A stretch of 64,000 nt of DNA from Schaalia sp. HMT-172 (lineage in GTDB: Bacteria > Actinomycetota > Actinomycetes > Actinomycetales > Actinomycetaceae): NCBI RefSeq assembly GCF_030644365.1, contig NZ_CP130058.1, positions 1,178,001-1,242,000 of the forward strand, given 5' to 3'. Below, one piece after another: positions 1,478-44,702 of the stretch (position 1 is its first letter; each line of letters opens with the position of its first letter). The position numbers and the translations under genes are program-made. The notes under the pieces are model-generated. The model was not told where the DNA came from and made no database searches. It worked only from the letters and a program-made list of their open reading frames with translations.

Positions 1478-1518
1478 GGCGGTGGCAGCGCCCTCGTCGG
1501 CGGCGAACGGAAAGCGAG

Positions 1519-1551
1519 CCTTCCCACGTGGCTGGCGTCCGCGTGGGAAGG
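1519..1551 (+). terminator. Hairpin terminator after the rseP-like gene
   Basis: Perfect 10-bp stem CCTTCCCACG/CGTGGGAAGG with a 13-base loop, 41 bases after the stop codon. There is no T-run. It separates dxr-rseP from the ispG transcript. Confidence 0.55.
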
Positions 1552-1567
1552 AATGGTCCGGGTGCGC

Positions 1568-1573
1568 GATAAT
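1568..1573 (+). promoter_or_regulatory. Leaderless -10 element of ispG
   Basis: GATAAT ends exactly six bases before the GTG start at 1580, and no Shine-Dalgarno sequence fits. The same spacing recurs at several other genes here, so a leaderless transcript is inferred. Confidence 0.5.
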
Positions 1574-1579
1574 GGGCGG

Positions 1580-2767
1580 GTGAGTGAAATCAATCTTGGT
1601 ATGCCCGACGTCGCGGCGTCGCCGTTCCCGCGTCGGCAGACGCATCGCCTGATGGTGGGAGACGTTCCCGTGGGCGGTGGGGCGCCGGTGTCCGTCCAGT
1701 CCATGACGACCACGAAGACGCACGATATTGGCGCGACGCTGCAGCAGATCGCGGAGCTGACCGCCGCGGGCTGTGACATCGTGCGCGTCGCGTGCCCGAC
1801 GGATAAGGATGCTGATGCGCTGCCGATCATCGCGAAGCAGTCCCGTATTCCCGTCATCGCGGACATTCACTTCAAGCCGAAGTACGTGTTCCAGGCGATC
1901 GAGGCCGGTTGCGGCGCCGTGCGCGTGAACCCGGGCAACATCCGTAAGTTCGACGACCAGGTGAAGGACATCTGCAAGGCGGCCTCCGATCACGGCGTCT
2001 CCCTGCGTATCGGCGTGAACGCGGGTTCGCTGGATCCGCGCCTGCTGAAGAAGTACGGCCGAGCGACGCCCGAGGCCCTGGTCGAGTCGGCGATCTGGGA
2101 GGCCTCTCTTTTCGAGGAGAACGACTTCCACGACTTCAAGATTTCGGTCAAGCACCACGACGTGCTCACCATGGTTCAGGCCTACCGGATGCTCTCGGAG
2201 GCGGGGGATTGGCCGCTGCACCTGGGTGTCACCGAGGCTGGGCCTGCCTTCCAGGGCACGATTAAGTCCGTGTCCGCCTTCTCGATCCTGCTGGCCGAGG
2301 GCATCGGTGACACGATTCGCGTCTCCCTGTCGGCGCCTCCCGTGGAGGAGGTCAAGGTGGGCACGAAGATGCTGGAGTTTTTGGGCCTGCGTGACAAGAC
2401 CCTCGAGATCGTGTCCTGCCCCTCCTGTGGCCGAGCTCAGGTGGATGTGTGGACGCTGGCCGAGAACGTCACCGAAGGGCTCAAGGACTTGACCGTCCCG
2501 CTGCGCGTGGCCGTCATGGGGTGCGTCGTCAACGGCCCGGGTGAGGCTCGCGAGGCGGACCTGGGTGTCGCCTCGGGCAATGGCAAGGGCCAGATCTTCA
2601 TCCGCGGTGAGGTGGTGGAGACGGTGCCCGAGGACCAGATCGTCGAGACGCTGATCCGTCGTGCTAACGCGTTGGCCGAGGAACTCGGCCTCGAACCGGG
2701 GTCCGGAACCGTTGAGGTTGCCCCGATCACCGCCCCGGATGTGAAACTTCCGGGCATCGATCGCTGA
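1580..2767 (+). CDS. ispG: 4-hydroxy-3-methylbut-2-enyl diphosphate synthase
   Basis: IspG (GcpE) reduces MEcPP to HMBPP in the MEP isoprenoid pathway, using a [4Fe-4S] cluster. The 395-residue product has the N-terminal TIM-barrel start [15 protein letters not shown]. The three cluster cysteines are present, two in SCPSCGRAQ and one in [12 protein letters not shown]. The length is normal for the bacterial two-domain form. GTG at 1580 is preferred over ATG at 1553 because a -10 hexamer lies six bases upstream and homologues start near this point. It sits one gene after dxr, so two enzymes of one pathway flank the protease. Confidence 0.95.
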
Positions 2768-2784
2768 GCGTTGGAGGATTCATC

Positions 2785-3288
2785 ATGCGTCTTCGTACCC
2801 TTGCCTGCCTGTCCCTGATCGGCGGCGCGTGCGCGCTGGCGGCCAGCGGTTTTCCGCGGCGCATTGGCCTGACCGCGTCTCAGGCCGACGTGTCGCTGCC
2901 CGGCGACCTGCTCCTGCCTGGCGCGAACGTGGTCGTGGACCGCGGCGTCGCCATCGACGCCCCCGCCTCCGTCGTGTGGGACGTGCTCGGGCGCGCCTTT
3001 GAGCCCGAGGACGAGTCGACGATCGTGGACGTTGAGGAGGAGGATCACGTGCTCATGCGGGTGGCCGCGCCCGGCGCTCCCGCGGGGGCCCCGGCCTCGG
3101 GCACGTGCGTGATCGCCCTGCTGCCCCTGTCCCCGTCGCGCACCCTGCTGCACATTCGCGAGCGTCACGAGGCCTCGGGCCGTGAGCTGGCCCTCGTGTG
3201 GGCGGGCGTCACTGCGGAGTCCCTGTCGTCCCTGTCCATGCTGCGCGACATCCGCGAGGCATGCGTCGGCGGGCTTGCCGATGCCTGA
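2785..3288 (+). CDS. Putative exported SRPBCC-like protein
   Basis: A 167-residue product of unknown function. The first 22 residues form a basic then hydrophobic stretch (MRLRTLACLSLIGGACALAA) that looks like a signal peptide. The segment VAIDAPASVVWDVL at about residues 53-66 resembles the first strand and helix of SRPBCC (polyketide-cyclase/START-like) lipid-binding folds. No catalytic motif is visible. TTGGAGGA lies just upstream of the ATG, and the gap after ispG is only 17 bases, so it is probably cotranscribed with ispG. The fold assignment is tentative. Confidence 0.7.
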   Translation: MRLRTLACLSLIGGACALAASGFPRRIGLTASQADVSLPGDLLLPGANVVVDRGVAIDAPASVVWDVLGRAFEPEDESTIVDVEEEDHVLMRVAAPGAPAGAPASGTCVIALLPLSPSRTLLHIRERHEASGRELALVWAGVTAESLSSLSMLRDIREACVGGLADA

Positions 3289-3321
3289 TTAGTCTCCTTC
3301 CAGCCCGTTCGGTTGGACAGC

Positions 3322-3372
3322 CATCCCCGTTGGTGTTGTAGTATCGCTTCGTACGCAACGCCGACGGGGATG
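3322..3372. promoter_or_regulatory. 17-bp imperfect palindrome around a -10-like hexamer
   Basis: The arms CATCCCCGTTGGTGTTG (3322-3338) and CAACGCCGACGGGGATG (3356-3372) pair over 17 positions with two G-U pairs. The 17-base loop starts with TAGTAT (3339-3344), a plausible -10 box. This could be an operator, a terminator for the preceding gene, or a 5'-UTR structure. Confidence 0.4.
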
Positions 3373-3396
3373 TTGCACTATCCGAAGGGGGATACG

Positions 3397-3813
3397 GTGT
3401 TCGTCACTTCCACCGCTCTGCTCGCGCTCGTGGGCTTGTTCGTTGCGCTCCTGTGGGCGTGGACGTGGTCCGGCGTCGGCGCGAGCGCCCGTCGCGTCGC
3501 GATGCGCATGGATCTGCGCGGTGGATCGGCCAGCGCGGAGATGACGCGCCTGGTGTGGCCGCTCATGCCCCTGCTCTCCGTCGTCTGGTTCGTCACCGCT
3601 GACCTGGTGGGTCGTGAGGCCGCCGGTCTCGACACGCTCGGTCCCTGCGCTCTGCTCCTGGGCCTCCTCGCGGCCATGATCCTGGTCGCTGTCCAGTCCC
3701 TGTACCTGGGTGGCATGCCCGAGTGGGCCTACCCGGGGTGGATGGCTCGCCGCTACTACGCCGCGCACCCGCAGGCGCGCGAGCGCGAGCTGGGGGTCGG
3801 CGCTCTCATCTGA
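3397..3813 (+). CDS. Small membrane protein of unknown function
   Basis: A 138-residue protein with three likely membrane segments: residues 1-24 (FVTSTALLALVGLFVALLWA), about 51-71 (LVWPLMPLLSVVWFVTADLV) and about 80-105 (LGPCALLLGLLAAMILVAVQ). The C-terminal tail is hydrophilic and ends GVGALI. I do not recognise the family. GTG at 3397 is chosen because GAAGGGGG sits five bases upstream. Earlier in-frame starts would run through the palindrome at 3322-3372. It lies between ispG and proS and has no visible link to either. Confidence 0.7.
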   Translation: MFVTSTALLALVGLFVALLWAWTWSGVGASARRVAMRMDLRGGSASAEMTRLVWPLMPLLSVVWFVTADLVGREAAGLDTLGPCALLLGLLAAMILVAVQSLYLGGMPEWAYPGWMARRYYAAHPQARERELGVGALI

Positions 3814-3879
3814 GGGACGTCGAGCCCTCGATGAGGGGCCACACGGCTGTGCCGGTGGCCCACCTGGCGGCGCGTGCCG

Positions 3880-3885
3880 TACTCT
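3880..3885 (+). promoter_or_regulatory. Leaderless -10 element of proS
   Basis: TACTCT followed by six bases and then ATG at 3892. No ribosome-binding site precedes the start. Confidence 0.5.
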
Positions 3886-3891
3886 TGGACC

Positions 3892-5700
3892 ATGCTTCGA
3901 AATCTCTCGACTTTCTTCCTGCGCACCCTGCGCGAGGACCCGGCCGACGCCGAGGTCAATTCCCATAAGCTCCTGGTCCGCGCCGGTTACATCCGCCGCT
4001 GTGCCCCCGGCATCTACACGTGGCTTCCTCTCGGCCTGCGCACGCTGCGCAAGATCGAGAACATCGTGCGCGAGGAGATGGACGCGATGGGCGCCCAGGA
4101 GGTGCACTTCCCGGGCCTGATTCCCGCTGAGCCCTACAAGGCGACGAACCGCTGGGAGGAGTACGGCCCGACGCTGTTTAAGCTTAACGATCGCAAGGGC
4201 GGCGACTACCTGCTGGCCCCCACTCACGAGGAGATGTTCACTCTCCTGGTGAAGGACATGTACTCCTCGTACAAGGACCTTCCCCTCACGCTGTACCAGA
4301 TTCAGACGAAGTACCGCGACGAGGCGCGTCCGCGCGCCGGCCTGATCCGTGGCCGCGAATTCGTCATGAAGGACGCCTACTCTTTCGACATTGACGACCA
4401 GGGCCTGGACGCCTCGTACCAGGCTGAGCGCGACACCTACGAGCGCATCTTCCAGCGCCTGGGCCTGCGCTACGTCATCGTCTCTGCGATGAGTGGCGCG
4501 ATGGGCGGCTCTCGTTCGGAGGAGTTCCTGCACCCCTCGCCGATCGGCGAGGATACGTTCGTGGCGTCCCCGGGCGGCTACGCTGCCAACGCTGAGGCCG
4601 TGACGACCCCCGTCCCCGAGGCCGTCGATGCGTCCGGCGTGCCCGCGCCCGTGGAGGTCCCCACGCCCGACGCCCCCACGATCGAGGCGCTCGTCGATCT
4701 GCTCAACGTTTCGTACCCGCGCAATGATCGTCCCTGGACCGCCGCCGACACGCTGAAGAACGTCGTCGTGACGCTCACCCACCCGGACGGGCAGCGCGAG
4801 CTCCTCGTCGTGGGCGTGCCCGGCGACCGCGACGTCGACATGAAGCGCCTTGAAGCCGCAGTGGCCCCCGCCGAGGTCGAGATGGCGTCGGATTCGGACT
4901 TCGAGCCGCACCCCGAGCTGGTGCGCGGCTACATCGGCCCCACGGTCCTGGGCCCCAACTCGCCGAAGCGCGCCGTGGATGAGGAGGGCAACGCCTCCGG
5001 TTCCGTGCGCTACCTGGTCGATCCCCGCGTTGTCGACGGCACAGCCTGGGTGACGGGCGCGAACGCCGAGCAGCGTCACGTCCTGAACCTGGTCATGGGC
5101 CGCGACTTCACCGCCGACGGGACGATCGAGGCCGCCGAGGTGCGCGAGGGCGACCTGGCTCCCGACGGCTCGGGCCCCCTTCATCTGGAGCGTGGCATCG
5201 AGATCGGCCACATCTTCCAGCTGGGCCGCAAGTACGCCAAGGCGCTGGGCCTGACCGTCCTCGACGAGAACGGCAAGACCCAGGTCGTGACCATGGGCTC
5301 CTACGGTATCGGCGTCACCCGCGTCATGGCGGCCCTGGCCGAGGCCAACTGCGACGACAAGGGACTGAGCTGGCCCGCGCAGATCGCCCCCTTCGACGTG
5401 CACGTCCTGGCCACGGGCAAGGGCGATGAGGTCTTCGAGACCGCGCAGTCTCTGGGCGTCCAGCTCGACGCGGCCGGCCTGGACGTCCTGGTGGACGACC
5501 GCCGGAAGGTCAGCGCGGGAGTGAAGTTCAAGGATTTCGAGCTCGTGGGCGTGCCCTTCGGTCTGGTCGTGGGCCGGTCGCTGGCCGACGGCCAGGTCGA
5601 GATCCGCGTGCGCGCCACCGGTGAGACGATTGTGGTGCCCGTCGAGGAGGCCGTTGAGCGCCTGCGCGAGGCCCACGCGGCGGCCCTGAAGGGGGAGTGA
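3892..5700 (+). CDS. proS: Prolyl-tRNA synthetase (bacterial type with editing insertion)
   Basis: ProRS charges tRNA-Pro with proline in the cytoplasm. The 602-residue length is that of the bacterial form carrying a YbaK-like editing domain between class II motifs 2 and 3. The start [18 protein letters not shown] is typical of the family. Motif 2 is in [20 protein letters not shown], and motif 3 in [16 protein letters not shown]. The anticodon-binding domain is C-terminal. An upstream GTG at 3874 is in frame, but ATG at 3892 fits homologue starts and the leaderless -10. def follows two bases after the stop. Confidence 0.96.
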
Positions 5701-5701
5701 C

Positions 5702-6193
5702 ATGACTATTCGTCCCATCCGCATCATCGGTGACCCGGTCCTGCGCACCGTGTGCGACCCGATCACGGACATCACCCCGAACGTGAAGGCCCTCGTCGAG
5801 GACCTGCTCGAGGGCGTCGACATGGACGGGCGCGCGGGTCTGGCCGCCAACCAGATCGGCGTGAGCCTGCGTGCCTTCTCCTGGAACATCGACGGGGAGA
5901 TCGGCTACGTGCTCAACCCCCGCATCGTCGCCCTGAGCGAGGACGAGTACCAGGACGGTGACGAGGGCTGCCTGTCGGTTCCGGACCTGTGGTACCCGAC
6001 CGAGCGTGCCTGGTACGCGCGCTGCGAGGGCACGGACCTGGACGGCAAGAAGGTTGTCGTCGAGGGTGAGGAGCTCATGGCCCGCTGCATCCAGCACGAG
6101 TGCGACCACCTGGACGGCCACATCTACATCGACCGTCTGGATCGCCCGACTCGCAAGAAGGCGCTGCGCGACATCCGCAACGCTGGCTTCTGA
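5702..6193 (+). CDS. def: Peptide deformylase
   Basis: Removes the N-terminal formyl group from nascent proteins, using a metal ion. The 163-residue product has the three deformylase motifs: GLAANQIGV near residue 43, EGCLSVPD with the metal-binding Cys near residue 91, and QHECDHLDG with the two His ligands and catalytic Glu near residue 134. It begins one base after the proS stop, with its ribosome site (GAAGGGGGA) inside the end of proS, so the two are cotranscribed and probably coupled. A strong hairpin ends the unit. Confidence 0.95.
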
Positions 6194-6215
6194 AAGGGAC
6201 GGCGCCACAGCGTGA

Positions 6216-6254
6216 GAACGCGCCGGGGAATGGAGTGCATTCCTCGGCGCGTTC
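6216..6254 (+). terminator. Terminator of proS-def
   Basis: A 17-bp stem, GAACGCGCCGGGGAATG pairing with CATTCCTCGGCGCGTTC (one G-U pair), with a 5-base loop. There is no T-run, which is common in high-GC actinobacteria. Confidence 0.75.
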
Positions 6255-6363
6255 CACTATCCTGTAATCACATCGTGCGTGCCGATCAGGCACGGTTCAT
6301 TGCGACTCGCGGCAACTTAGGACGTAGGGGAAGACGATCCTGACAAAGCCAACAGGAGGAACA

Positions 6364-6867
6364 ATGAGAGGGTCATACACCCGCGGTGTACTTTTCGTGC
6401 ACTCAACACCGCCCGCTCTGTGCCCGCACATCGAGTGGGCGTTGGGCACCGCGCTCGGCCAGGAGGTCCGCCTCCAGTGGTCGGATCAGGAAGCGGCGCC
6501 GGGCATGGTTCGCTGCGAGTTTTCGTGGGTGGGACCGATCGGCTCGGGCGCCCGTTTGGCGTCCGCGCTGCGCGGTTGGGAGCACCTGCGTTACGAGGTG
6601 ACTGAGGAAGCCACGGCCTCGAGCGACGGGGGACGCTGGTGCCACACCCCGTCCCTGGGTATCTTTCACTCTCAGATGGATTCCGTGGGTAACGTCGTGG
6701 TCCCCGAGGATCGTATCCGCGCCGCCATGGAGTCCGCCTCCTCGTACCAGGAGCTGCTCGAGGGGCTTGACTTGGCCCTCGGTCAGGCCTGGGATGACGA
6801 GCTCGAATCGTTCCGTCACGCCGGCGCCGGCGCGCCCGTGCGCTGGTTGAACAACCGGGTGGGCTGA
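6364..6867 (+). CDS. DUF3145 family protein
   Basis: A 167-residue member of the actinobacteria-specific DUF3145 family, whose function is unknown. Recognisable blocks are RGVLFVHSTPPALCPHIEWA at the N terminus, GARLASALRGWEHLRYEVTE in the middle and LGQAWDDELESFRHAG near the C terminus. AGGAGGAACA precedes the ATG. Its stop overlaps the start of the ACP-like gene (TGATG), so the two form a coupled pair. In other actinobacteria this family sits near fatty-acid-synthesis genes and aceE. That fits the neighbours here, although no fab enzymes are present in this window. Confidence 0.88.
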   Translation: MRGSYTRGVLFVHSTPPALCPHIEWALGTALGQEVRLQWSDQEAAPGMVRCEFSWVGPIGSGARLASALRGWEHLRYEVTEEATASSDGGRWCHTPSLGIFHSQMDSVGNVVVPEDRIRAAMESASSYQELLEGLDLALGQAWDDELESFRHAGAGAPVRWLNNRVG

Positions 6868-7247
6868 TGGGGTCTATCGCTGACCTGTTGGGTGACCAGC
6901 TGCGTGCGGGCTTAGCGCAGCTGGTCGATCCCGACGCCGACGGGGAAGCACCCGACACGGCCCAGGCCTCGTCGGTCGGCTCGTCGTCGGCGAGCCCCAC
7001 GGCCGCGGAGCTCGCGCGCGAGGCCGCGATGGAGGCAGTCCTCGATGAGGCGGACCTGGAGCCTGCGCACGCGCGAACGGAGCTGACGCTGCGCGGGGAC
7101 CTGGACATGGATGACGTATCGCTGTACGCCGTCGTCGCGCGCATCGAACGCGAGGCGAAGGTGGGTTTCAGTGACGCGCAGATCGAGGGGTGGCAGACCC
7201 TCGGGGATCTGCTCGACGCGGCCGCCACCGCCGCTTCACAGTCCTGA
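6867..7247 (+). CDS. Acyl-carrier-protein-like protein lacking the phosphopantetheine serine
   Basis: A 126-residue protein. A low-complexity Ala/Ser/Asp-rich first half (about residues 20-58) precedes a C-terminal domain that aligns without gaps to acyl carrier proteins. RGDLDMDDVSLYAVVARIER matches the usual DLDVDSLSMVEVVVAAEE region, and WQTLGDLLD matches LKTVGD. At the invariant Asp-Ser-Leu attachment site it reads Asp82-Asp83-Val84, so the prosthetic-group serine is an aspartate. It therefore cannot be a normal holo-ACP. It is coupled to the DUF3145 gene by a TGATG overlap. It may be a structural or regulatory pseudo-ACP. Confidence 0.75.
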   Translation: MGSIADLLGDQLRAGLAQLVDPDADGEAPDTAQASSVGSSSASPTAAELAREAAMEAVLDEADLEPAHARTELTLRGDLDMDDVSLYAVVARIEREAKVGFSDAQIEGWQTLGDLLDAAATAASQS

Positions 7248-7383
7248 CGCAAGGGGAACGTTAGGGGAGTGTCAACGACGTTCCCAATGTTCGTAAAGTG
7301 CCTGAAAATAGGGTGCTTCGGGCCTACGATGGAGGCGGATCGCCGGGGGTTGTCCGGCGCTGACTCGAACGGAAGGAACGACG

Positions 7384-8796
7384 TTGACCCGCACCGAAGA
7401 GGATCTGCTTGGCACGCGTGAAGTACCCGATGACGCGTACTGGGGCATTCACACGCTGCGCGCCATTGAGAACTATCAGATCTCTGGCCGCACCATCAAC
7501 GAGGCACCCGAGCTGATCCGCGCCTTCGCGCAGGTGAAGAAGGCTTGCGCGATGGCGAACATGCAGCTCAAGGCCATGAAGCCCGTGAAGGCTGAGGCCA
7601 TCATTTCCGCCTGCGACGAGATCATTGAAAACGGGCGCTGCATGGACCAGTTCCCCGTCGATCAGTTCCAGGGAGGTGCCGGAACCTCCGTGAATATGAA
7701 CGCGAACGAGGTCATCGCGAACCTGGCGCTGGAAATCCTGGGGGAGGAGAAGGGAAACTACGACGTCATCAACCCCAACGATCACGTCAACCGTTCCCAG
7801 TCGACGAACGACGCCTACCCGACGGCCTTCCGCATCGCCCTGTGGCGCAAGGTGAATCGCCTGCGCAAGGCCATCGACGAGCTGGCCGACTCCTTCGACG
7901 AGAAGGGCGCGGAGTTCCGACACATCCTGACGATGGGGCGCACGCAGCTCCAGGACGCCGTCCCCATGTCGCTGGGCAGCGAGTTCTCGGCATTCGCGCA
8001 CACGCTGCGCGAGGAGGACGAGCGCCTGGTGAACAACGCAGAGCTTCTCCTGGAGACGAACCTGGGCGCGACCGCGATCGGAACGGGCCTGAACACCCCG
8101 GACGGCTATCAGCAGGTCGTCGTGCGTCACCTGCGGCGCATCACGGGAGCGCGCGTCGTCGGCTCCCCGAACCTGCTGGAGGCGACCTCCGACACGGGTG
8201 CCTACGTGTCCATGCACGCCACGATCAAGCGCAGCGCCGTGAAGCTGTCGAAGGTCTGCAACGATCTGCGCCTGCTGGCGTCGGGACCGCGCGCCGGCCT
8301 CAACGAAATTAACCTGCCGAAGATGGCGGCCGGCTCGTCGATCATGCCGGCGAAGGTCAACCCGGTGATCCCCGAGGTCGTCAACCAGGTGTGCTTCAAG
8401 GTCATCGGCAACGACCAGACCGTCACCATGGCCGCCGAGGCCGGTCAGCTCCAGCTCAACGTCATGGAGCCCGTCATCGCGCAGGCGCTCATCGAGTCCA
8501 TCAACCTGCTCGTGAACGCCTGCGACACGTTGCGTGAGCGCTGCGTCTCGGGTATTACCGCGAACGAGGAGGTGTGCCGCGGCTACGTGGAGAACTCCAT
8601 CGGTATCGTCACCTACTTCAACGACGTCATCGGCCACCACCTGGGCGACGTCGTCGGCAAGAGGGCTGCCGCCGAAGGCAAGACCGTCCGCGAAGTCATC
8701 CACGAGATGGAGCTCCTCTCCGAGGCCGAGGTGGAGCGTATCCTGTCTCCCGAAAACCTCGCGCACCCGAAGTACGCGGGCACCGAGGAGGAGTGA
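7384..8796 (+). CDS. aspA: Aspartate ammonia-lyase
   Basis: Cleaves L-aspartate to fumarate and ammonia. The 470-residue product belongs to the fumarase/aspartase superfamily. The start [20 protein letters not shown] and the signature [15 protein letters not shown] near residue 317 favour aspartase over class II fumarase. TTG at 7384 is the start, with GGAAGGAACG just upstream, and no better in-frame start exists. It stands alone, with an approximately 135-base upstream region containing a weak -10 (TACGAT at 7325-7330) and a hairpin downstream. Confidence 0.92.
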
Positions 8797-8826
8797 GCTC
8801 GCTCCTTGCCGCCTGAGCGAATGGCG

Positions 8827-8859
8827 CAGGCCGGGGTTCCCGCGTGGGGCCCCGGCCTG
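8827..8859. terminator. Bidirectional terminator between aspA and the flavin reductase gene
   Basis: 10-bp stem CAGGCCGGGG/CCCCGGCCTG with a 13-base loop, placed between converging genes. It is nearly identical to the hairpin at 9504-9542. Confidence 0.7.
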
Positions 8860-8876
8860 GTCGCTTGCCGGCGCCG

Positions 8877-9446
8877 CTAGGGGAGCAGGGACTCCTTGAA
8901 GGAGCGAACGAAGGTGCCGAAGCGCTCCACGCGGTCCGAGAAGTAGCGGTAGATGCGCCTGCGCGCGTCACCCACGTACTCGACGGTGTGCAGATCCACG
9001 TAGCGGAAACGGCCGTGCTCGTCGATGAGCGCAGAGTCGACCAGGCGCCCTGTGATCTCGCAGCGGAAGTGCGTGTAAGTGCCGTCGTCCGTGGCCTCGA
9101 GGACCCGGCACAGGAGGCTCATCTGTGAATCGTCGAGGACAGGGATGCCGTCGTGGTCGCTCGAATCCAGCTGCGCGTGCCTGAGTTTATCGCCGCCCGA
9201 GACGGTGCCCGCGTACTCGAACAGGCCCATGGCCTCGGCCCCGAAGAGATTGAGCGAGCACACTCCCGAGCGCTTGATCGATCGGGCGGCATGCGTGGTG
9301 GAATCGCAGCCGATCATCACCATCTGTCCCAGCGAGTACGAGGAGGACCCCGTCGTGATTCCGACGCCGACGGCGTCGTCCGGGTAGGCCAGTATGTAGA
9401 CGGGAAAGCCGTAGTAGAACTTTTCTGTTTCGTAGGGAACGTGCAT
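8877..9446 (-). CDS. Flavin reductase-like (FMN-binding split-barrel) protein
   Basis: A 189-residue protein of the flavin-reductase-like fold. SYSLGQMVMIGCDSTTHAAR and GVCSLNLFGAEAMGLFEYAG match the FMN-binding strands, and an acidic/aromatic C-terminal segment follows. The usual role is NAD(P)H-dependent reduction of FMN or a related flavin-dependent reaction. The substrate is unknown. ATG at 9446 is preferred over GTG at 9461 because CACAAT (9453-9458) ends six bases upstream, the leaderless pattern seen elsewhere here. The gene is transcribed opposite to aspA and lies between two near-identical hairpins. Confidence 0.78.
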   Translation of the reverse strand: MHVPYETEKFYYGFPVYILAYPDDAVGVGITTGSSSYSLGQMVMIGCDSTTHAARSIKRSGVCSLNLFGAEAMGLFEYAGTVSGGDKLRHAQLDSSDHDGIPVLDDSQMSLLCRVLEATDDGTYTHFRCEITGRLVDSALIDEHGRFRYVDLHTVEYVGDARRRIYRYFSDRVERFGTFVRSFKESLLP

Positions 9447-9452
9447 GCTCCC

Positions 9453-9458
9453 ATTGTG
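9453..9458 (-). promoter_or_regulatory. Possible leaderless -10 of the flavin reductase gene
   Basis: On the minus strand CACAAT is followed by six bases and then ATG. The hexamer is weaker than the others of this type. Confidence 0.35.
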
Positions 9459-9503
9459 CACCGGTCGCGGCGCGTGGGCAGCCGCTGTTCCACCGGCGTG
9501 AAG

Positions 9504-9542
9504 GATGAGGCCGGGGACCCGCGTGGGGCCCCCGGCCTCGTC
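9504..9542. terminator. Terminator downstream of aceE
   Basis: 13-bp stem: GATGAGGCCGGGG pairs with CCCCGGCCTCGTC with one G-U pair. The loop is ACCCGCGTGGGGC. It shares the CCCGCGTGGGG loop core and the stem with the hairpin at 8827-8859. Confidence 0.7.
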
Positions 9543-9588
9543 AGTTGTCGTTAGGCACCGCGGTGGAGGAGCGGGCGCCTAACGGCGC

Positions 9589-12336
9589 TCACTCCTCGCC
9601 GGCGTGATCCGAGCCTGCGATGGAGTAGTTGAACAGGTCGTACTTCGCGATCGCCTGGCCGACGACCGACGGGTCGATCTGACCCTTGTCGGCCAGGGCG
9701 GCCAGCGTGCGCACGACCATCGACTCGGCGTCGATGTGGTACCAGCGGCGTGCTGCGCGGCGCGTGTCGGAGAAGCCGAAGCCGTCCGCGCCGAGCACGT
9801 GGTAGTCGCCGGGCACCCACTGGCGGATCTGGTCGGGCAGCATACGGTCGAAGTCCGAGGAGGCGACGAAGGGGCCCTCGCGACCGGCGAGCTTGGCGGA
9901 CACATAGGGCGTGCGGCGCGGCTCGTCGGGGTGCAGGAAGTTGTGCTCCTCGGCGTCCAGGCCGTCGCGGCGCAGCTCGTTCCACGAGGTCACGGACCAC
10001 ACGGCGGCGTCCACGCCCCAGTCTCGGGCCAGCAGCTCGCGTGCCTCGCGCGCCCACGGCACGCCTACGCCAGAGGCGAGCAGCTGAGCCTTGGGGCCGC
10101 CGAAGTTCTGGTGCTCATCGAGGTTGTAGATGCCCTTGATGATGCCTTCGACGTCCACGTTCTCCGGCTCGGCCGGCTGGTGGATGGGCTCGTTGTAGAC
10201 GGTGATGTAGTACATGACGTTCGGGTCGCGACCGGCCGCGTCGCCGTACATGCGCTCCAGGCCGTCCGCCATGATGTGGCGGATCTCGTAGGCGTAGGCC
10301 GGGTCGTAGGACACGAACGCGTGGTTGGTCGCGGCCAAAACCTGAGAGTGACCGTCCATGTGCTGCAGGCCCTCGCCCGCGAGCGTCGTGCGGCCGGCGG
10401 TCGCGCCGATGACGAAGCCCTTGGTCAGCTGGTCGCCCGCCGCCCAGAACTGGTCGCCCGTGCGCTGGAAGCCGAACATCGAGTAGAAGATGTAGATCGG
10501 TACCATCGGCAGGTCGTGCGTCGCGTACGCCGTGCCGACGACCTGGAAGGCGGCAGCGGAGCCGGCCTCGGTGATACCCGTGTGCAGGATGCGGCCCTGC
10601 TCGGACTCACGGTAGGACAGCATCATGTCCGCGTCGACGGGCGTGTAGGACTGGCCGGTCGTGTTGAAGATCTTCGCCGAGGGGAAGATCGCGTCCAGAC
10701 CGAAGGTACGGGCCTCGTCGGGGATGATCGGCACGAAGTACTTGCCGACCTGCTTGTCCTTCATGAGGTCCTTGATGAGGCGCACGAGGGCCATGGTCGT
10801 GGCGACCTCGAGCTTGCCCGAACCCTTGGACAGCGCCTCGAAGGGGCGCGTGGGCAGGGTGGGGAGCTTGGGCGCACGGTCGGCGCGGCGCTCGGGCACC
10901 CAACCGCCGAGGATCTCGCGGCGCTCCTTCATGTACTGCAGGGCCGGGTGATCGGCCGGCGGCATGTAGTACGGAGGCATGTAGGGATCGCGTTCCAGCT
11001 CCTCGTCCGTGATCGGGATCTGCAGGCGGTCGCGCAGCTGCTTGGCGTCCTCGAGCGTCAGCTTCTTCATCTGGTGCGTCGAGTTACGGCCGGCGAAGTG
11101 CGTGCCCAGGGCGTAGCCCTTGATGGTGTGGGCGAGGATGACGGTCGGCTGGCCGGTGTGGTCCATGGCGGCCTTGTAGGCGGCGTAGACCTTGCGGTAG
11201 TCGTGGCCGCCGCGCTTGAGCTCCCAGAGCTGCTCGTCGGTCCAGTTCTTGACCATTTCCTTGGTGCGCGGGTCGCGGCCGAAGAAGTGCTCGCGCACGT
11301 AGGCGCCGTCGTTCGCGCCGAACGTCTGGTAGTCGCCGTCCAGGGTCTCGTTCATGACGTGGACGAGGGCGTCGTCCTTGTCGGCGGCGAGCAGCTGGTC
11401 CCAGCCGCGGCCCCAGATGACCTTGATGACGTTCCAGCCGGCGCCCTTGAAGAAGGCCTCGAGCTCCTGGATGATCTTGCCGTTGCCGCGCACCGGGCCG
11501 TCGAGACGCTGCAGGTTGCAGTTGATGACGAAAGTCAGGTTGTCGAGGCGCTGCTGGGCGGCGAGCTGGAGCATGCCGCGGGATTCGGGCTCGTCCATTT
11601 CGCCGTCGCCGATGAAGGCCCACGTGTGCTGCTGGGAGGTGTCCTTGATGCCGTTCATGTGCAGGTAGCGGTCGAACCACGCCTGGTAGATGGCTTCGGC
11701 GGGCCCCAGGCCCAGCGACACGGTGGGGAACTCCCAGAAGTGGTCGAGCTGGCGCGGGTGCGGGTAGGAGGGCAGGCCGTGAGCGGTGGAGACCTGCTGG
11801 CGGAAGCCGTCCATCTCCTCTTCGGAGAGGCGTCCTTCGAGGAAGGCGCGGGCGTAGGGGCCGGGGGAGGCGTGTCCCTGGAAGAAGACGTGGTCGCCGC
11901 CGCCGGGGTGGTCCTTGCCGCGGAAGAAGTGGTTGAGGCCGACCTCGTAGAGGGTGGCGACGGAGGCGTAGGAGGAGATGTGTCCTCCGACCTTGACGCC
12001 GGGGCGCTGGGCGCGGGTGACTTGGACGGCGGCGTTCCAGCGGATCCAGCGGCGGTATTCGCGCTCCATGGCTTCGTCGCCGGGGAAGTACGGCTCCTGG
12101 TCAACGGGGATGGTGTTGACGTAGGGGGTTGTGTATTCCTGGGGGAGCTGGACGCCGTTGCGGCGCGCTTCGTCCAGCATGTGCAGCAGGATGTAGCGCG
12201 CGCGGGGGCCGCCTTTTTCGTTGATGAGTCCGGTCAGGGACTCGACCCATTCGGCGGTTTCCTGCGGGTCGTTGTCGGGGACCTGGGGGATCAGCCCGTT
12301 GACGACGACGGGGCGTGACTCGTGGAGTTGGCTCAC
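9589..12336 (-). CDS. aceE: Pyruvate dehydrogenase E1 component, homodimeric type
   Basis: The thiamine-diphosphate-dependent E1 subunit of the pyruvate dehydrogenase complex, which decarboxylates pyruvate and acetylates lipoyl-E2. The 915-residue length and single chain mark the homodimeric type of actinobacteria. The ThDP motif is GDGEMDEP followed by [20 protein letters not shown]. The C-terminal region has [21 protein letters not shown] at 12336 is preceded by GAGAAGGT, so a longer N-terminal extension is unlikely. lipB and lipA, which make the lipoyl cofactor of E2, lie 7-9 kb away. No E2 or E3 gene is in the window. Confidence 0.96.
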
Positions 12337-12595
12337 GGTGTACCTTCTCGCTTGACTCGGAGCTGCGACGTGCAGCGTTCGTGGGCGGTGTCTTCGGTCG
12401 ACATCGCACATATCGGGACTATTGTCCCACTAATGGTGTGGCTTTGCGAGTGTTTGGGTGCGCGCGAGCCTATGAGGTGCGTATCACCGCGCCTCGTGAT
12501 GCCGCGGAAAAGTAAAGCTGCTGGTCACGGGGGCGTTGCTTGGAAGGGGTGTTTCGATTGGTGTTATCCCTTGCATTCGACCTGCTTTCATGCCC
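12337..12595. other. Intergenic region upstream of aceE
   Basis: A 260-base non-coding stretch between divergent transcripts. It holds a small palindrome GGGACTATTGTCCC (12415-12428) that could be an operator for aceE. I see no RNA gene. Confidence 0.4.
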
Positions 12596-12601
12596 TAGGA
12601 T
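12596..12601 (+). promoter_or_regulatory. Leaderless -10 upstream of the leader ORF
   Basis: TAGGAT ends six bases before a GTG at 12608. TTGCAT at 12571-12576 is a possible -35, 19 bases upstream. Confidence 0.4.
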
Positions 12602-12607
12602 GAAGGC

Positions 12608-12661
12608 GTGAACGTTGATATGACACTGAGCGCCAGCTCGTTGATGGGTGGTGCTGCGTGA
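12608..12661 (+). CDS. Putative 17-residue leader peptide coupled to the DUF3052 gene
   Basis: GTG at 12608 opens a 17-codon frame (MNVDMTLSASSLMGGAA). Its TGA overlaps the ATG of the DUF3052 gene (TGATG). A -10 hexamer lies six bases upstream of the GTG, as for other leaderless genes here, and the DUF3052 ATG has only a weak ribosome site of its own. This suggests that a short leaderless leader is translated first and the next start is reached by re-initiation. No family is recognisable and expression is unproven. Confidence 0.35.
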   Translation: MNVDMTLSASSLMGGAA

Positions 12662-13062
12662 TGGCAGTGAGCCTGGGTTTTGCGTCCGATGCGATCGTGC
12701 AGGAGTTCTACGTCGATGATGACGTGGATCAGGGTGTGCGCGATGCGGTTGAAAGGGAGACGGGGCATCCGCTCGTTGACGTCGATTACGCGGACGTCGT
12801 GGACGGCGCGATCGTCTGGTGGCGCGCGGATGACGCCGAGGAGGAGGACCTCGCGGACGTCCTCGTGGACGCGATGTCGAACTTGGATGACGGCGGCCTG
12901 ATCTGGGTGCTGATCCCTAAGCCGGGTCGCCCGAATTCTGTGAGGGTTGGCGACGTGGAGGAGGCCGCGGAGATCACGGGCCTGCACGCGACGACGTCGA
13001 CGGCGCTGGGGGCGAACTGGGCGGGCGTGCGCCTGACTGCGCGTCCGCGTTCGCGCCGCTAG
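12661..13062 (+). CDS. DUF3052 family protein
   Basis: A 133-residue acidic protein of the actinobacterial DUF3052 family, with function unknown. Family-typical blocks are SLGFASDAIVQEFYVDDDVD at the N terminus and DDGGLIWVLIPKPGRP in the middle. Relatives lie next to aceE in mycobacteria (Rv2240c region), as here, where it is divergent from aceE. ATG at 12661 is preferred to the adjacent GTG at 12658. A weak GATGGGTGG is the only ribosome-site-like sequence. Coupling to the upstream leader frame is likely. Confidence 0.85.
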   Translation: MAVSLGFASDAIVQEFYVDDDVDQGVRDAVERETGHPLVDVDYADVVDGAIVWWRADDAEEEDLADVLVDAMSNLDDGGLIWVLIPKPGRPNSVRVGDVEEAAEITGLHATTSTALGANWAGVRLTARPRSRR

Positions 13063-13164: not shown

Positions 13165-13238
13165 GGGCCTTTAGCTCAGTTGGCTAGAGCGTCTGGTTTA
13201 CACCCAGAAGGTCATCGGTTCGAGCCCGGTAGGGCCCA
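13165..13238 (+). tRNA. tRNA-Val (anticodon TAC)
   Basis: A complete cloverleaf. The acceptor GGGCCTT pairs with AGGGCCC, the D-arm is GCTC...GAGC, and the anticodon stem TCTGG/CCAGA has loop TTTACAC with TAC at positions 34-36. The T-arm is ATCGG-TTCGAGC-CCGGT and the discriminator base is A. CCA is not encoded. A hairpin follows directly, and a foreign-looking gene starts beyond it. Confidence 0.96.
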
Positions 13239-13248
13239 CAAACGCTCG

Positions 13249-13276
13249 GGGGCCGGAAGCGACAGCTTCCGGCCCC
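13249..13276. terminator. Terminator of tRNA-Val and of the NB-ARC/TPR gene
   Basis: Perfect 12-bp stem GGGGCCGGAAGC/GCTTCCGGCCCC with loop GACA. The same stem, with loop TCTT, occurs at 16672-16699 on the other side of the NB-ARC/TPR gene. Confidence 0.8.
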
Positions 13277-13294: not shown

Positions 13295-16200
13295 CTATTC
13301 GGCGGGTGTCTCCTTCTCCTGTCCGGACTCTTCCTTGGCTGTCTCAAGATGTTCGCGGACTGTTACTGTCAGAGCGTGCTCACTCCCCAAAGTGATCACA
13401 CACGTCTCAAGTAACTCCTTCAAATGATTTATGCATTCCCCAGTTCGGTTGCTTTCCAAGTATGCGTTTGCAAGAGCGAAACGCGATGATAATGTATTAA
13501 TGTGTTTCGATCCGTAAATACGTCGATAGTCTCTATATAGATTGTCGAAATATTGTATTGCCAGCTCGAAGTAACCTATATCTAGAACTAGGTTTGCGAG
13601 ATGCTGGTAATTCTCGAGAGTGTCAAGGTGGTCCGGTCCTAGACTGTCAGTGCAGTCGTTGTAAAGCTTACGAAGGTGACGCAAAGCTTCTTTGAAGTTA
13701 CCGGCTTCGTGATAGGCGGATGCAAGATTGCGACGAGCTCGTTGGGTGCGCATACTAGTTATGCCGCTAGAATGTTGAAGCTCGTCAACAATGACTTGAA
13801 AGTGATGAATGGCAGTGTCGTAGTGCTTCGCCCTGAGGTGTGCTTCCGCAAGATTATATCGCGCATGCTGAGTGTCGTCATTATTTGAATGGCGTTTCCT
13901 TAAGATGTCCTCAAATTCGGATATGGCACTGTCAATATCGGACATATCGAGGTACGCATTAGCCAAATCGTTTTGGAGCTCGAGAGTAAAATAATGTGTT
14001 GGCCCGTTGGTTTGTGCACTAGCGTCAAGTGCCTCTGTTAACAAAGTGATAATCTCGTTATTACGCCCTGCTACTTTGTATGTATGTGCGAGGTTGTTGA
14101 TTACTTCATGAGTTAAAAAATGATTCAAGCCGAGTGCTATCTGGCAGTCACGTAACAATGTGCTGAAGTGCCGGATTGCGTCATCAATGTATCCAGCTGA
14201 GTGATATGTGAAAGCAAGTCTGCAGCGCGCGTTCAGAGTGTCGACATCATCTGGGCCCAACGCTTGAGTGAGGTTATCGGCAAGTATTCGATAGTGATTC
14301 AGAGCATTGTCGATTAAGTCGGAACGTGAATGCGCATCTGCGAGGTGCTGTTGCGTGGTGAGCGTCTCGATATGTGTGGAGCCGAGCGACTTCAAGTCAT
14401 TATTCAGGGCATCTTCATAAAGCTCTATGATTCTCTCGTGGTGACCAGCCTGGAAATATGCGTCTGCCAAGTTGCTACGCGTATTTCTTGTTTCAATATG
14501 ATTGGCACCTAGGGTCTGAATGCAATGATCAAGAGTCTCTGAATATAGGCGAATTGCTTCAATGATGTATCCATTGTCGTAATATGCTTCAGCGAGATTG
14601 TTGCGCGCGCATAATACGGTTAGATTGTCAATTCCTAACAGGTTTTGTATAATTCCAAGAGCGTGTGTGAGTGTTATTGTATGGTGTGCAGTATGTCGAT
14701 CATATGCAAAGGCTAGTAGCTCGAACAGAGCGCTCTGTAGCTCATCGTGCCTAAAGAGGGAATGGGAGTGAGGCTGCTGGCTCATAGCCGAGAGTTGCGA
14801 AGTAATCGCTATTGCCCTATCTCTGTGTGTGGTGATGGTATCGGCGCCTGAAGAGTCTTTATAATGCTGGATAAGGAAGTTGACGCAAGTTAATTCAGCT
14901 ATGGCGCGTTCGTTAGGTGTTAAGTGTGTGCGTAGTGCTAGTGCTTGGAGTCGATGAATGAAAGCAACTTCGCCATCGGCTGATTCGGATATTATCGAAA
15001 AGTCAAAAAGGAGTGAGTAGGCTTTTCTAGAGTGAAAGTTACTAAACTTTAACCATTTACTTGGTATGCCAGATTCTGCAAGGAAGCATAGGATTGTGAG
15101 TATTTTCTTGGCTTCAATTTGTATCGTAACATCGCTCAAGCGATCTAAGGTTGTTGTGACGGCAAAGTGTAGTGCCGTTATGGTTCCTGTGCTGTATTCA
15201 GTTCCTTCAATGGCTTCAAGGAGTCGGTCGACGTTGTGTAACTGTATATCGTTGAAGTAGTCTTCAAGGTTTTGATAGTAGTGGGCGCACGTTGTTCCTG
15301 CCTGTGCTATCGCTAATGGCAAGTCACCCAAGTAATTTGCAATGTTATTTGCCGCTTCTCGATTCGCGTCTTTCGTAATGTCCTGAAGTAGTTTGATTGA
15401 ATCGTTGCGTGTAAAGTCTTCGATTATATATTCATTCCAGTTGTCCTGGTGCCGCCAGCCGTTCCTATTTCTAGTCGTTGCGAGTATGTGTATGCCTGGT
15501 CCGCTTGGAAGTAGGCTGGATAAGTCGTCGATGTTTTGAATATTGTCGAAGACAAAGATGCAGTTGGTGTAAGATCTTGTCCGCAGTACTGACAATACCT
15601 GATTGACTCTAACAGTTCTGTCTTCGAAGAGTCCTGTCATCACGTTGAGTACCGATTCTCCAAATGCTATCATATCGTTCGTAATTGTGTTGTAAGATGA
15701 GGCGTTAATCCATGCGACTAGTGACCACCCATCGGATTCACATCTGTCTGCTATCGCGGCGGCAAGGCGCGTCTTTCCACTTCCTGCATGTCCGATTAAT
15801 ACGTTGAAGCTTGGGAAGTTTATCGTACTCGGATTCAAAATACGATCCTGTAGTGTTTGGCCATCAATTTCAGGGTATCGTTCGATCCAGTGTCTCAGCG
15901 GTCGTGGGCGGCTGCCCCAAACATTATTGTTAAGTTTCTTTGGACAACTTTTAGTGCTCGTGTCTATGTGAGCTGTGCGCAATGATTCAATATCGTTGTG
16001 GAGTTGTTCATGTTGTTTACTGTGAGCTTCTGCTGTCGATGCAATGATGCTTTTGATATTTCTTACTTCTATGATAATTTCGTACAGCTGTTCGAGCGCG
16101 GCCTTAAGTGCAGCCATGTTGTAGCGTGGAGAATTTGGGGCCAAAACTAGGTATTCGTCGGCAATGCAGCGTAGGAGGTTGTCGAGGTAGTGCTCCTCTT

Positions 16201-16612
16201 CTGGTTTGAAGTTCACTCGTACCTGTTTCGATTTTTCCAGAACGTAGGCGTGGAATGTTTCGGGCTTTGTGATTGCCTCACATAATGCATCCTCGTCATC
16301 GAGGAGCTTTCTTATGGTTTCATTGGCCGCGGTCTCAAGGCTGCCAATGAATAGATCAATACTCTTCAAATCAAGGCCGGATACAACAAGGCCATCTTCG
16401 ATAATTTCGAACTCGTTCTTGATCGTGCTTCTGAGCGCTCCGCTCATCTGCGCTTCTGCACTCCCGAACGTTTCGTCTTTGAGACTGCATGCGAGCTGGT
16501 AGAGCTCTTGCCCACCTTCTATTGCGTCAGCGACGAAGCCGAAGCCGGCTACTTTCACAAGAGACTTGACAATGCTTGTGGAGATGTTGACTGCTGCCCT
16601 CAATGTGCTCAT
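13295..16612 (-). CDS. STAND NTPase: NB-ARC domain with C-terminal TPR repeats (candidate defence sensor)
   Basis: A 1105-residue protein in three parts. The N-terminal ~220 residues are helical with no recognised domain and could be an effector. The NB-ARC-type ATPase has Walker A GHAGSGKT (about 274-281), Walker B CIFVFDN (about 351-357), an ATTR sensor (about 378-381) and the GLPLA-like GDLPLAIAQAG (about 429). About ten kinesin-light-chain-like TPR units (LGANHIETRNTRSNLADAYF type) follow from about residue 640 to the end. This is the architecture of bacterial NLR-like proteins, many of which sense phage. The gene is much AT-richer than its neighbours, with AGA, TTA, ATA and similar codons, so it was probably acquired. 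ATG at 16612 has a leaderless -10. The function is inferred. Confidence 0.85.
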   Translation of the reverse strand: MSTLRAAVNISTSIVKSLVKVAGFGFVADAIEGGQELYQLACSLKDETFGSAEAQMSGALRSTIKNEFEIIEDGLVVSGLDLKSIDLFIGSLETAANETIRKLLDDEDALCEAITKPETFHAYVLEKSKQVRVNFKPEEEHYLDNLLRCIADEYLVLAPNSPRYNMAALKAALEQLYEIIIEVRNIKSIIASTAEAHSKQHEQLHNDIESLRTAHIDTSTKSCPKKLNNNVWGSRPRPLRHWIERYPEIDGQTLQDRILNPSTINFPSFNVLIGHAGSGKTRLAAAIADRCESDGWSLVAWINASSYNTITNDMIAFGESVLNVMTGLFEDRTVRVNQVLSVLRTRSYTNCIFVFDNIQNIDDLSSLLPSGPGIHILATTRNRNGWRHQDNWNEYIIEDFTRNDSIKLLQDITKDANREAANNIANYLGDLPLAIAQAGTTCAHYYQNLEDYFNDIQLHNVDRLLEAIEGTEYSTGTITALHFAVTTTLDRLSDVTIQIEAKKILTILCFLAESGIPSKWLKFSNFHSRKAYSLLFDFSIISESADGEVAFIHRLQALALRTHLTPNERAIAELTCVNFLIQHYKDSSGADTITTHRDRAIAITSQLSAMSQQPHSHSLFRHDELQSALFELLAFAYDRHTAHHTITLTHALGIIQNLLGIDNLTVLCARNNLAEAYYDNGYIIEAIRLYSETLDHCIQTLGANHIETRNTRSNLADAYFQAGHHERIIELYEDALNNDLKSLGSTHIETLTTQQHLADAHSRSDLIDNALNHYRILADNLTQALGPDDVDTLNARCRLAFTYHSAGYIDDAIRHFSTLLRDCQIALGLNHFLTHEVINNLAHTYKVAGRNNEIITLLTEALDASAQTNGPTHYFTLELQNDLANAYLDMSDIDSAISEFEDILRKRHSNNDDTQHARYNLAEAHLRAKHYDTAIHHFQVIVDELQHSSGITSMRTQRARRNLASAYHEAGNFKEALRHLRKLYNDCTDSLGPDHLDTLENYQHLANLVLDIGYFELAIQYFDNLYRDYRRIYGSKHINTLSSRFALANAYLESNRTGECINHLKELLETCVITLGSEHALTVTVREHLETAKEESGQEKETPAE

Positions 16613-16618
16613 GCGCAC

Positions 16619-16671: not shown

Positions 16672-16699
16672 GGGGCCGGAAGCTCTTGCTTCCGGCCCC
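16672..16699. terminator. Terminator downstream of ndh
   Basis: 12-bp stem GGGGCCGGAAGC/GCTTCCGGCCCC with loop TCTT, 85 bases after the ndh stop on the minus strand. The stem is identical to the tRNA-Val hairpin at 13249-13276. Confidence 0.75.
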
Positions 16700-16783: not shown

Positions 16784-18151
16784 TCAGGCCTCGTGAATGC
16801 GCTCCTCGACGACGTCCTCGCCGGCGACGAGCTTGCCGGACGCGCCGGCCCCCAGCTGCTCCATGGCCAGGCGGCCCACCATCTGCTGGTTCGTCGTCGT
16901 GCGCTGCGAACGCGCACCCGACAGGAAACTGAAGAACCAATTCACCAGCGTGCCCACCTGCGACTTGAAGCCGACGATGTACAGCAGGTGCAGGAAGCAC
17001 CAAGCCACCCACGCGGTGAAACCCGTCATCTTCGTGTTACCCATCTTCACGACCGCCTTGAAGCGCGCGATCGTCGCCATCGACCCCTTATCGAAGTAGG
17101 AGAACTCCGTCGCCCTCGGCTTACGGCCCGCCAGGCGCGCCGCCACCGTGTCTGCGGCGAAGCGCGCCGACTGGATGGCGCCCTGCGCGACGCCGGGGAC
17201 GCCCGGGAACGCCATCATGTCGCCCAACACGAAGATCTCGGGGTGCCCGGGCAGCGTCAAGTCCTTGTTGACGCTCACGCGGCCCGCGCGGTCCACCTCG
17301 GCGCCCGTCGCCTCGCCCAGGGCCCGGCCCAGCGGGCTCGCGGACACACCCGCAGCCCACACCTTGCACACGGACTCGATCCGCTCCTCTTCGCCGGACT
17401 TGTACTTCAGCGTCACGCCCTCGGCGTCCACGTCGGTGACGAAGGCGTTCATCTTCATCTCGACGCCGAGCTTGGCCAGCGCCTCCTCGGTCTTGTGCCC
17501 GAGCTGCTCGCCGAACGGGGGGAGTGGGTGCTCGGCGCCGTCCACCAGGATGACGCGAGCCTTCGTCGGATCGATGTTGCGGAACTCGCCCTTCAGCGTG
17601 TGAGAGGCGAGCTCGCGGATCTGTCCCGCCATCTCCACGCCCGTCGGGCCCGCGCCCACGACGACGAAGGTGAGGAGCTTGCCCACCAGAGCAGGATCGG
17701 TCTCGATCTCCGCCAGCTCAAACGCGCCGAAAATACGCGCGCGCAGCTCGAGTGCGTCATCGATCGTCTTCATGCCCGGCGCGAACACCGCGAAGTGGTC
17801 ATTGCCGAAGTAGGACTGGCCCGCGCCCGCCGCCACGATCAGCGTGTCGTACTCGGTGTGCTCATATTTGTTGTGGTTGCGCCACTTCACGACGCGAGCC
17901 TCGACGTCGATATCCTCGACGAGCGCCTGCAGGACGGTCACGTTCTTCTGCTTCCGCAGGATCTCGCGCGTCGTGGGGGCGATGTCGCCCTCGGAGAGGA
18001 TGCCGGTGGCCACCTGGTAGAGCAGGGGCTGGAACAGGTGGTGCGACGTGCGGGCCAGGATAGTGATGTCGGCGTCGGCCTTCTTCAGTCGACGAGCAGC
18101 CGTCAGACCAGCGAAACCGGAGCCGATGATGACGATGCGATGACGGGGCAT
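16784..18151 (-). CDS. ndh: Type II NADH:quinone dehydrogenase
   Basis: A single-subunit, non-proton-pumping flavoprotein that passes electrons from NADH to menaquinone at the inner face of the membrane. The 455-residue product has the FAD motif IVIIGSGFAGLTAARRL at the N terminus and a second dinucleotide fold, FVVVGAGPTGVEMAGQI, near residue 165. The quinone-side segment is GVPGVAQGAIQSARFAAD, and a membrane-binding C-terminal region (AWVAWCFLHLLYIVGF) follows. GGAGA precedes the ATG. An iron-box-like palindrome lies 16 bases upstream, which suggests iron-responsive control. Confidence 0.94.
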   Translation of the reverse strand: MPRHRIVIIGSGFAGLTAARRLKKADADITILARTSHHLFQPLLYQVATGILSEGDIAPTTREILRKQKNVTVLQALVEDIDVEARVVKWRNHNKYEHTEYDTLIVAAGAGQSYFGNDHFAVFAPGMKTIDDALELRARIFGAFELAEIETDPALVGKLLTFVVVGAGPTGVEMAGQIRELASHTLKGEFRNIDPTKARVILVDGAEHPLPPFGEQLGHKTEEALAKLGVEMKMNAFVTDVDAEGVTLKYKSGEEERIESVCKVWAAGVSASPLGRALGEATGAEVDRAGRVSVNKDLTLPGHPEIFVLGDMMAFPGVPGVAQGAIQSARFAADTVAARLAGRKPRATEFSYFDKGSMATIARFKAVVKMGNTKMTGFTAWVAWCFLHLLYIVGFKSQVGTLVNWFFSFLSGARSQRTTTNQQMVGRLAMEQLGAGASGKLVAGEDVVEERIHEA

Positions 18152-25448: not shown

Positions 25449-25821
25449 GGTGGATCTGCCGGCCGGGCGGCCGCGCGCGGAAACGCTCGAGGAACGTCCG
25501 GGCTCCACAGGGCAGGGTGATGGCTAACAGCCACCCGGGGTAACCCGCGGGACAGTGCCACAGAAAAGAAACCACCTCCACTGATCGTGGCGGTAAGGGT
25601 GAAAAGGTGAGGTAAGAGCTCACCAGCGGCGCGGGCGACCGCGTCGGCTAGGTAAACCCCACCCGGAGCAAGACCGAGCAGCAGGCAGGGCGGCCCGCCT
25701 CATGCCTGCGGGTAGGTTGCTGGAGGCCGTCGGCAACGACGGTCCTAGATAGATGGTCGCCACCGCGAGACCGGTAACGGTCCGCGGGCACAGAACCCGG
25801 CGTATAGGCCGACAGATCCAC
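25449..25821 (+). ncRNA. rnpB: RNase P RNA, bacterial class A
   Basis: The catalytic RNA of RNase P, which matures tRNA 5' ends. The 5' GTGGATCTG pairs with 3' CAGATCCAC to form helix P1. The conserved cores GAGGAACGTCCGGGCTCCAC and GGCTAACAGCCACC are present, as is ACAGTGCCACAGAAAAGAAA, and the 3' ACCCGGCGTATAGGCC closes the fold. The approximately 373-base length is normal. A promoter precedes it and a strong terminator follows. Confidence 0.95.
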
Positions 25822-39575: not shown

Positions 39576-44580
<5,005 letters not shown>

Positions 44581-44702
44581 CCACACAATACGTGCGGGTA
44601 ACAAGAACAACGGACAACAACACTGCCGCAACCACTATACAAATCACGATCAACCCACACCCCCCAAACACACAGCCGGGGGGGACAGTGTTGAACACCA
44701 GT

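Follow-up and report, generated by a model that had tools for sequence, protein, structure and literature searches.

Why does an actinomycete chromosome carry, among housekeeping genes, one AT-rich gene built like a nucleotide-binding leucine-rich-repeat-type (NLR-type) receptor, and what might that gene do for its host? The question arises in a 64,000-nucleotide stretch of Schaalia sp. HMT-172 (NZ_CP130058.1, forward strand, positions 1,178,001 to 1,242,000; hereafter the window), where a 1105-residue frame with an NB-ARC nucleotide switch and tetratricopeptide repeats (TPRs) lies between ndh and a tRNA-Val gene. Using a combination of profile searches, structure prediction and comparison of loci, we find that this interval is a slot that is empty or very differently filled in close relatives, the pattern that an arms race would be expected to give an immune gene. 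We consider it likely that the gene product is an NLR-type bacterial immune receptor, belonging to the AP-ATPase (NB-ARC) branch of the STAND (signal transduction ATPases with numerous domains) NTPases, which kills the cell or arrests its growth, and that the gene sits in a hypervariable, exchangeable slot. The gene and the boundaries of its slot are as follows.

13165-13239, plus strand: tRNA-Val (anticodon tac), one slot boundary, found with ARAGORN and Rfam and beside the slot in congeners too
13295..16612, minus strand: NNH1-like/NB-ARC/TPR receptor gene, 1105 aa, from the open frame, Pfam, NCBIfam and a single genome match
16784..18151, minus strand: ndh-type pyridine-nucleotide oxidoreductase, the other slot boundary, with Pfam Pyr_redox_2 (NDH2_C below cut-off only)

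Of the 35 genomes of the genus, 30 have a match to ndh at E<=1e-100, and our slot survey covers 28 loci, with G012 and G025 left out, the contig of G014 ending before the tRNA, and a DUF3052 gene serving as the boundary in G029, where BLAST missed the tRNA. Among 15 close congeners (ndh about 85% identical or more), eight hold a receptor, namely G000, which is the genome carrying the window, and G001, G005, G007, G013, G019, G022 and G023; in the other seven (G006, G010, G016, G018, G020, G021 and G026) the interval measures just 77-121 bases. The ndh/tRNA-Val interval of 12 more distant congeners gave no receptor match. An earlier note on this DNA, made from the letters alone, rightly placed the gene next to tRNA-Val and called it acquired. 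The gene has a GC content of 45.9%, where the examined stretch outside it has 68.7% and the locus about 67%. A slot filled in eight of 15 close congeners does not fit a one-off acquisition. The window insert is filled by the receptor alone, with no second frame of at least 80 aa kept. Two occupants (at L046 and L047) look worn: in that of G005 the N-terminal part is broken by in-frame stops, and that of G013 is shorter, at 943 aa, with weak TPR matches only (TPR_12 at 26.2 bits against a cut-off of 30.1), pointing to decay or to another sensor. At the boundary itself, the ndh match of G001 (L052:11198-12154) lacks query residues 292-394, owing either to a true deletion or to a fault in assembly.

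The contents of the slot differ far more than its flank. Across the 28 pairs of the eight occupants, ndh DNA is 78-97% identical whereas the receptors share 23-57% identity, values that include two occupants cut by contig ends and one without its N-terminus; for G000 and G022 the figures are 96.8% and 26.7%. The NB-ARC core is usually the most conserved part in these pairs, and the N-terminal region and TPRs usually the most divergent. Block-wise DNA identity is uneven, with G022 and G023 alike at 92-93% in some blocks where others lie at 30-76%, a sign of recombination. Explaining occupancy on the ndh tree takes five changes, of which starred branches force four, and occupancy clusters no more than in shuffles (291 of 500 as low); on the aceE tree of 13 genomes, which leaves out G019 and G023 because aceE is not in their loci, occupancy needs four changes, two of them forced. 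The receptors themselves fall into two classes, with G000, G005 and G013 forming one clade (100/100) that is rejected by both ndh (p 3e-51) and aceE (p 1e-8), and the flank group G000, G001 and G022 is in turn rejected by the receptor data (p 5e-13). These p values are nominal, because the groups were named after the trees had been seen; the conflict between receptor and flank trees is large all the same. Such conflict would be expected either from exchange between lineages or from ancient alleles kept across species. We suggest that occupants have probably been swapped between related bacteria by homologous recombination through the shared flanks, with retention of ancient alleles as the alternative. 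Because the gene is absent in about half of close relatives, extremely divergent, mosaic and built around a repeat sensor, immune selection appears the simplest reading of the slot.

The protein is intact. Its frame runs from an ATG without internal stop, an in-frame GTG lies upstream at 16618, and the 2.53 Mb genome holds a single match to it at E<=0.001. Its parts can be laid out along the minus strand.

15923..16612, minus strand: residues 1-230, helical N-terminal region, a divergent NNH1 (PF22733), from Pfam and the predicted model
14648..15922, minus strand: residues 231-655, NB-ARC and winged-helix region, an Apaf-1-like nucleotide switch
15770..15793, minus strand: Walker A GHAGSGKT, residues 274-281, read in the translation
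15542..15562, minus strand: Walker B CIFVFDN, residues 351-357, read in the translation
14945..14956, minus strand: HRLQ, residues 553-556, from conservation across a 16-row alignment
13313..14647, minus strand: residues 656-1100, ten TPR units and a capping helix, presumed sensor, from Pfam TPR_12 and helix pairs in the model

The receptor is an NB-ARC/AP-ATPase member of the STAND class: its P-loop NTPase bears the Walker A and Walker B motifs together with the sensor and GxP motifs, and is followed by a winged-helix region in an Apaf-1-like arrangement. Pfam NB-ARC is matched at E 2.2e-8 (34.1 bits against a cut-off of 23.5), whereas NACHT stays below its own (19 against 26.7). Residues G274, G277, G279 and K280 of Walker A and D356 and N357 of Walker B are kept in at least 90% of 36 alignment rows; ATTR and GDLPLA, which the earlier note had also picked out together with the two Walker motifs, are read in the translation at residues 378-381 and 429-434. 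Over 16 aligned rows H553 and R561 are invariant and R554-Q556 nearly so, and HRLQ stands in what we take to be the place of the MHD motif of NB-ARC proteins. The C-terminal array (TPR_12 at E 1.1e-48) fits an NLR-like layout with a presumed sensing role, and the full-length predicted model contains ten TPR helix pairs and a capping helix within residues 664-1096, in line with the estimate of about ten units. In single receptors at L039 and L058 the TPR units share mean identities of 86% and 73%, with a maximum of 100%, which suggests concerted evolution of the sensor there.

The N-terminal region had been described as holding no known domain, and this description needs correcting. Residues 1-230 alone match a single Pfam family, NNH1 (NACHT N-terminal Helical domain 1), weakly and below the cut-off (9.4e-4; 19.8 bits of 27), but the N-terminus of a relative reaches NNH1 at 7.4e-9, three of eight tested N-termini lie above the cut-off, and 23 of the 36 alignment members match at E<=0.1, several rows of that alignment being without the region entirely. 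The literature searched gave no tested function for NNH1. A separate model of the region is all helical (pLDDT, the predicted local distance difference test score, 79.9; pTM, the predicted template-modelling score, 0.60; first ~50 residues at low confidence), and a search of the PDB with this fold, a check that the earlier note had proposed alongside Pfam, returned no significant structural match. The most hydrophobic 19-residue stretch falls within the first 45 residues in 23 of 27 rows and beats 95% of shuffles in 16 of the 27. Because the effect is weak in the window protein, where 91 of 1000 shuffles are equally high, a membrane-inserting head is only a guess. Pore-forming death domains of the HeLo/MLKL-like kind are helical bundles with a membrane-inserting N-terminal helix; the region, with its all-helical model, this weak head and no significant PDB match, may or may not belong with them.

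How might such a protein act? In the mechanism we propose, by analogy with known receptors, the TPR superhelix would hold closed on an ADP-bound NB-ARC switch until the TPRs meet their trigger. That trigger is probably made by a phage or mobile element, or is a host protein that has been disturbed. Once it is bound, the switch would swap its nucleotide, oligomerise and cluster the NNH1-like helical N-termini, which could kill the cell or halt its growth, perhaps through a hydrophobic first helix at the membrane; defence would be the selective reason for keeping the gene. The inference of the earlier note, a single-gene defence system with a possibly new effector domain, is supported in part.

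The predicted core superposes on Apaf-1 and on the plant receptors NRC1 and NRC2. Apaf-1 and plant NB-ARC receptors use WD40 or leucine-rich repeats as sensors and CARD or coiled-coil N-termini, whereas the window receptor, a bacterial single gene, has TPRs and an NNH1-like helical region in their place. Bacterial STAND defence receptors such as Avs and bNACHT combine an N-terminal domain, a STAND NTPase and a C-terminal sensor, according to one account (PMC12169576). The window receptor appears to share this tripartite layout, but differs in having NB-ARC above and NACHT below the Pfam cut-off and in matching no Avs model in PADLOC, where matches at E<=1 comprise only weak mad3, mad8 and Csx1/Csm6. 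NACHT/STAND sensors diversified by diversity-generating retroelements are hypervariable putative bacterial immune sensors, as described in PMC10907252; the ndh/tRNA-Val slot, in contrast, appears to vary by whole-gene exchange and recombination, and since it holds one frame only in the window, no reverse transcriptase lies inside it. The surroundings weigh against an immune receptor: the neighbour scan gave no defence island, the genes around the receptor being housekeeping ones, and this want of support slightly lowers our confidence.

One rival reading makes the gene a STAND-type regulator of signalling or transcription that happens to be mobile, comparable to MalT, AfsR or the TPR protein of the FxSxx system; we regard it as unlikely. 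The receptor does pass the profile for the FxSxx-COOH system TPR protein (NF040586; 323.7 bits against a curated cut-off of 300), but the genome contains no FxsB radical SAM protein above cut-off (best 72.3 bits against 370), so membership of that system was rejected. No DNA-binding domain appears among the best 25 of 36 Pfam families, and a housekeeping regulator would not be expected to be absent in about half of close relatives, nor to be 27% identical beside a 97% identical flank. Elsewhere in the same genome, two long TPR frames of 828 and 1881 aa (G000:C1:1431363-1438776) match the FxSxx_TPR profile below cut-off.

It seems quite unlikely, too, that the gene serves allorecognition or inter-strain conflict, as in kin discrimination or a barrier to DNA exchange, rather than sensing phage. 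Fungal het loci also use NLRs with repeat arrays, and the high divergence, the presence/absence pattern and the receptor classes that conflict with flank trees resemble them, as do TPR units up to 100% alike in some relatives. Set beside loci of the het-d/het-e type (PMC12222747, PMC11138114), the likeness lies in a polymorphic NLR locus and, in some relatives of the window receptor, high internal repeat conservation, and the difference in that here there is one exchangeable bacterial chromosome slot. Phage or plasmid pressure would explain the same pattern, however, the TPR units of the window protein average only 29% identity to one another, and there is no evidence of cell fusion or of contact-dependent exchange of a trigger protein.

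The borders of the slot carry a signature of their own, in the form of two stem-loops.

16672..16699, no strand assigned: ndh-side stem-loop, 12-bp stem, loop AAGA (read from the minus strand), from a genome pattern scan; fold z -8.2
13249..13276, no strand assigned: tRNA-side stem-loop, same stem, loop TGTC (read from the minus strand), from a genome pattern scan; fold z -6.3

Both fold far better than shuffles. A scan of the genome for GGCCGGAAGC-loop-GCTTCCGGCC gives exactly two copies, and these bracket the receptor gene. A slightly looser pattern is matched in 12 of the 35 genus genomes, with two copies in G000, G001, G005, G013, G022 and G023 and one in G006, G018, G019, G020, G026 and G027, the last outside the slot survey. 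With a relaxed pattern, all seven empty sites have one copy, and occupied sites have two in G000, G001, G005, G013 and G022 and none in G007. For G023 the second copy is on a separate contig, next to tRNA-Val and a TPR end, and there the repeat spans about 90 bp, taking in the end of ndh; in the five other two-copy genomes the left flanks resemble each other no more than shuffled sequences do. Either an insertion copied the border, or deletion between the copies yields the empty sites. Integration into the tRNA gene was ruled out, the tRNA being whole and listed once in the window and the repeat being a stem-loop beyond it; a high-copy genomic repeat was ruled out by the two-copy count, and a canonical T-tailed terminator was rejected, since the terminator scan did not list the stem-loops, which may nonetheless act as terminators. 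A selfish cassette spreading by landing-site duplication with no host benefit is improbable: duplicated borders, frequent gain or loss and the in-frame stops of the G005 copy speak for it, but the window insert is filled by one gene, so that neither a recombinase nor a toxin-antitoxin pair of at least 80 aa is encoded in it, and conservation of the nucleotide-switch motifs extends across both alignments, of 16 and 36 rows.

The same receptor family occurs in the related genus Actinomyces (g3), between uppP and sbcD. There, 15 of 22 loci hold one to four receptors and seven hold none, in a sample picked non-randomly from 49 uppP genomes, homologue carriers first and then others, with G054 seen in part. 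In eight of the 15 occupied loci (L058, L060, L062-L064 and L224-L226) the first receptor lacks the N-terminal region, and in seven of these eight arrays a receptor bearing it comes next, an order possibly reflecting a sensor-helper pair. In G056 (L062), a copy of 285 aligned bases, the start of sbcD among them, sits between receptors two and three; this border duplication resembles that of G023. In G060 (L057:11394-13198), two frames, one of them ATPase-like, separate the receptor from an sbcC-like gene and might form a further defence module. Strong receptor matches are mostly confined to the family: 37 of 213 family genomes have them at E<=1e-20, own genome included. Sampled evenly, the class gave two genomes of 394, counting the own one, and the order gave, for the N-terminal part, four of 297, all in Actinomycetaceae and again including the own genome. 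A phage-borne gene was rejected, viral contigs giving two loci that match residues 272-439 at 28%; the three phage records that match the receptor are all Wolbachia and match in the TPRs only.

Defence genes of the STAND class are known already, as are hot spots and the diversity of repeats; in the literature searched we found no published description of a single dedicated address at which NB-ARC-TPR receptors, exchangeable and strongly divergent, sit between duplicated borders that can be read. Tentatively, and as a possibility that we hold to be doubtful, Actinomycetaceae might keep NLRs in dedicated single-address slots (ndh/tRNA-Val here, uppP/sbcD in Actinomyces) whose ancient, divergent lineages are swapped between species like major histocompatibility complex or het alleles. 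Swapping would use landing pads, each a cassette-borne copy of a stem-loop or of the end of a neighbouring housekeeping gene, that let ordinary recombination add, replace or remove a receptor without an integrase, and some Actinomyces arrays might be sensor-helper pairs as in plants. If so, bacterial NLR diversity would be kept as in plants and fungi, in polymorphic loci exchanged among relatives, yet packed into compact slots of one gene each, their borders readable. The slot would offer a simple route to many NNH1-NB-ARC-TPR receptors of oral actinomycetes, to the matching of alleles with phages and to NNH1 function, and makes it testable whether bacterial repeat-sensor NLRs are under balancing selection.

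The gene had also been called more AT-rich than all its neighbours, which holds for nearby protein genes, GC in 1-kb steps being 63-72% over 1-13000 and 17001-39000; the window's other low-GC, skewed stretch (55-58% at 39-45 kb) is accounted for by an rRNA operon (16S, 23S and 5S; 39576-44821). An RNase P RNA lies at 25455-25820, and at 63001-64000 the GC content of the window falls to 58.9%, below its surroundings.
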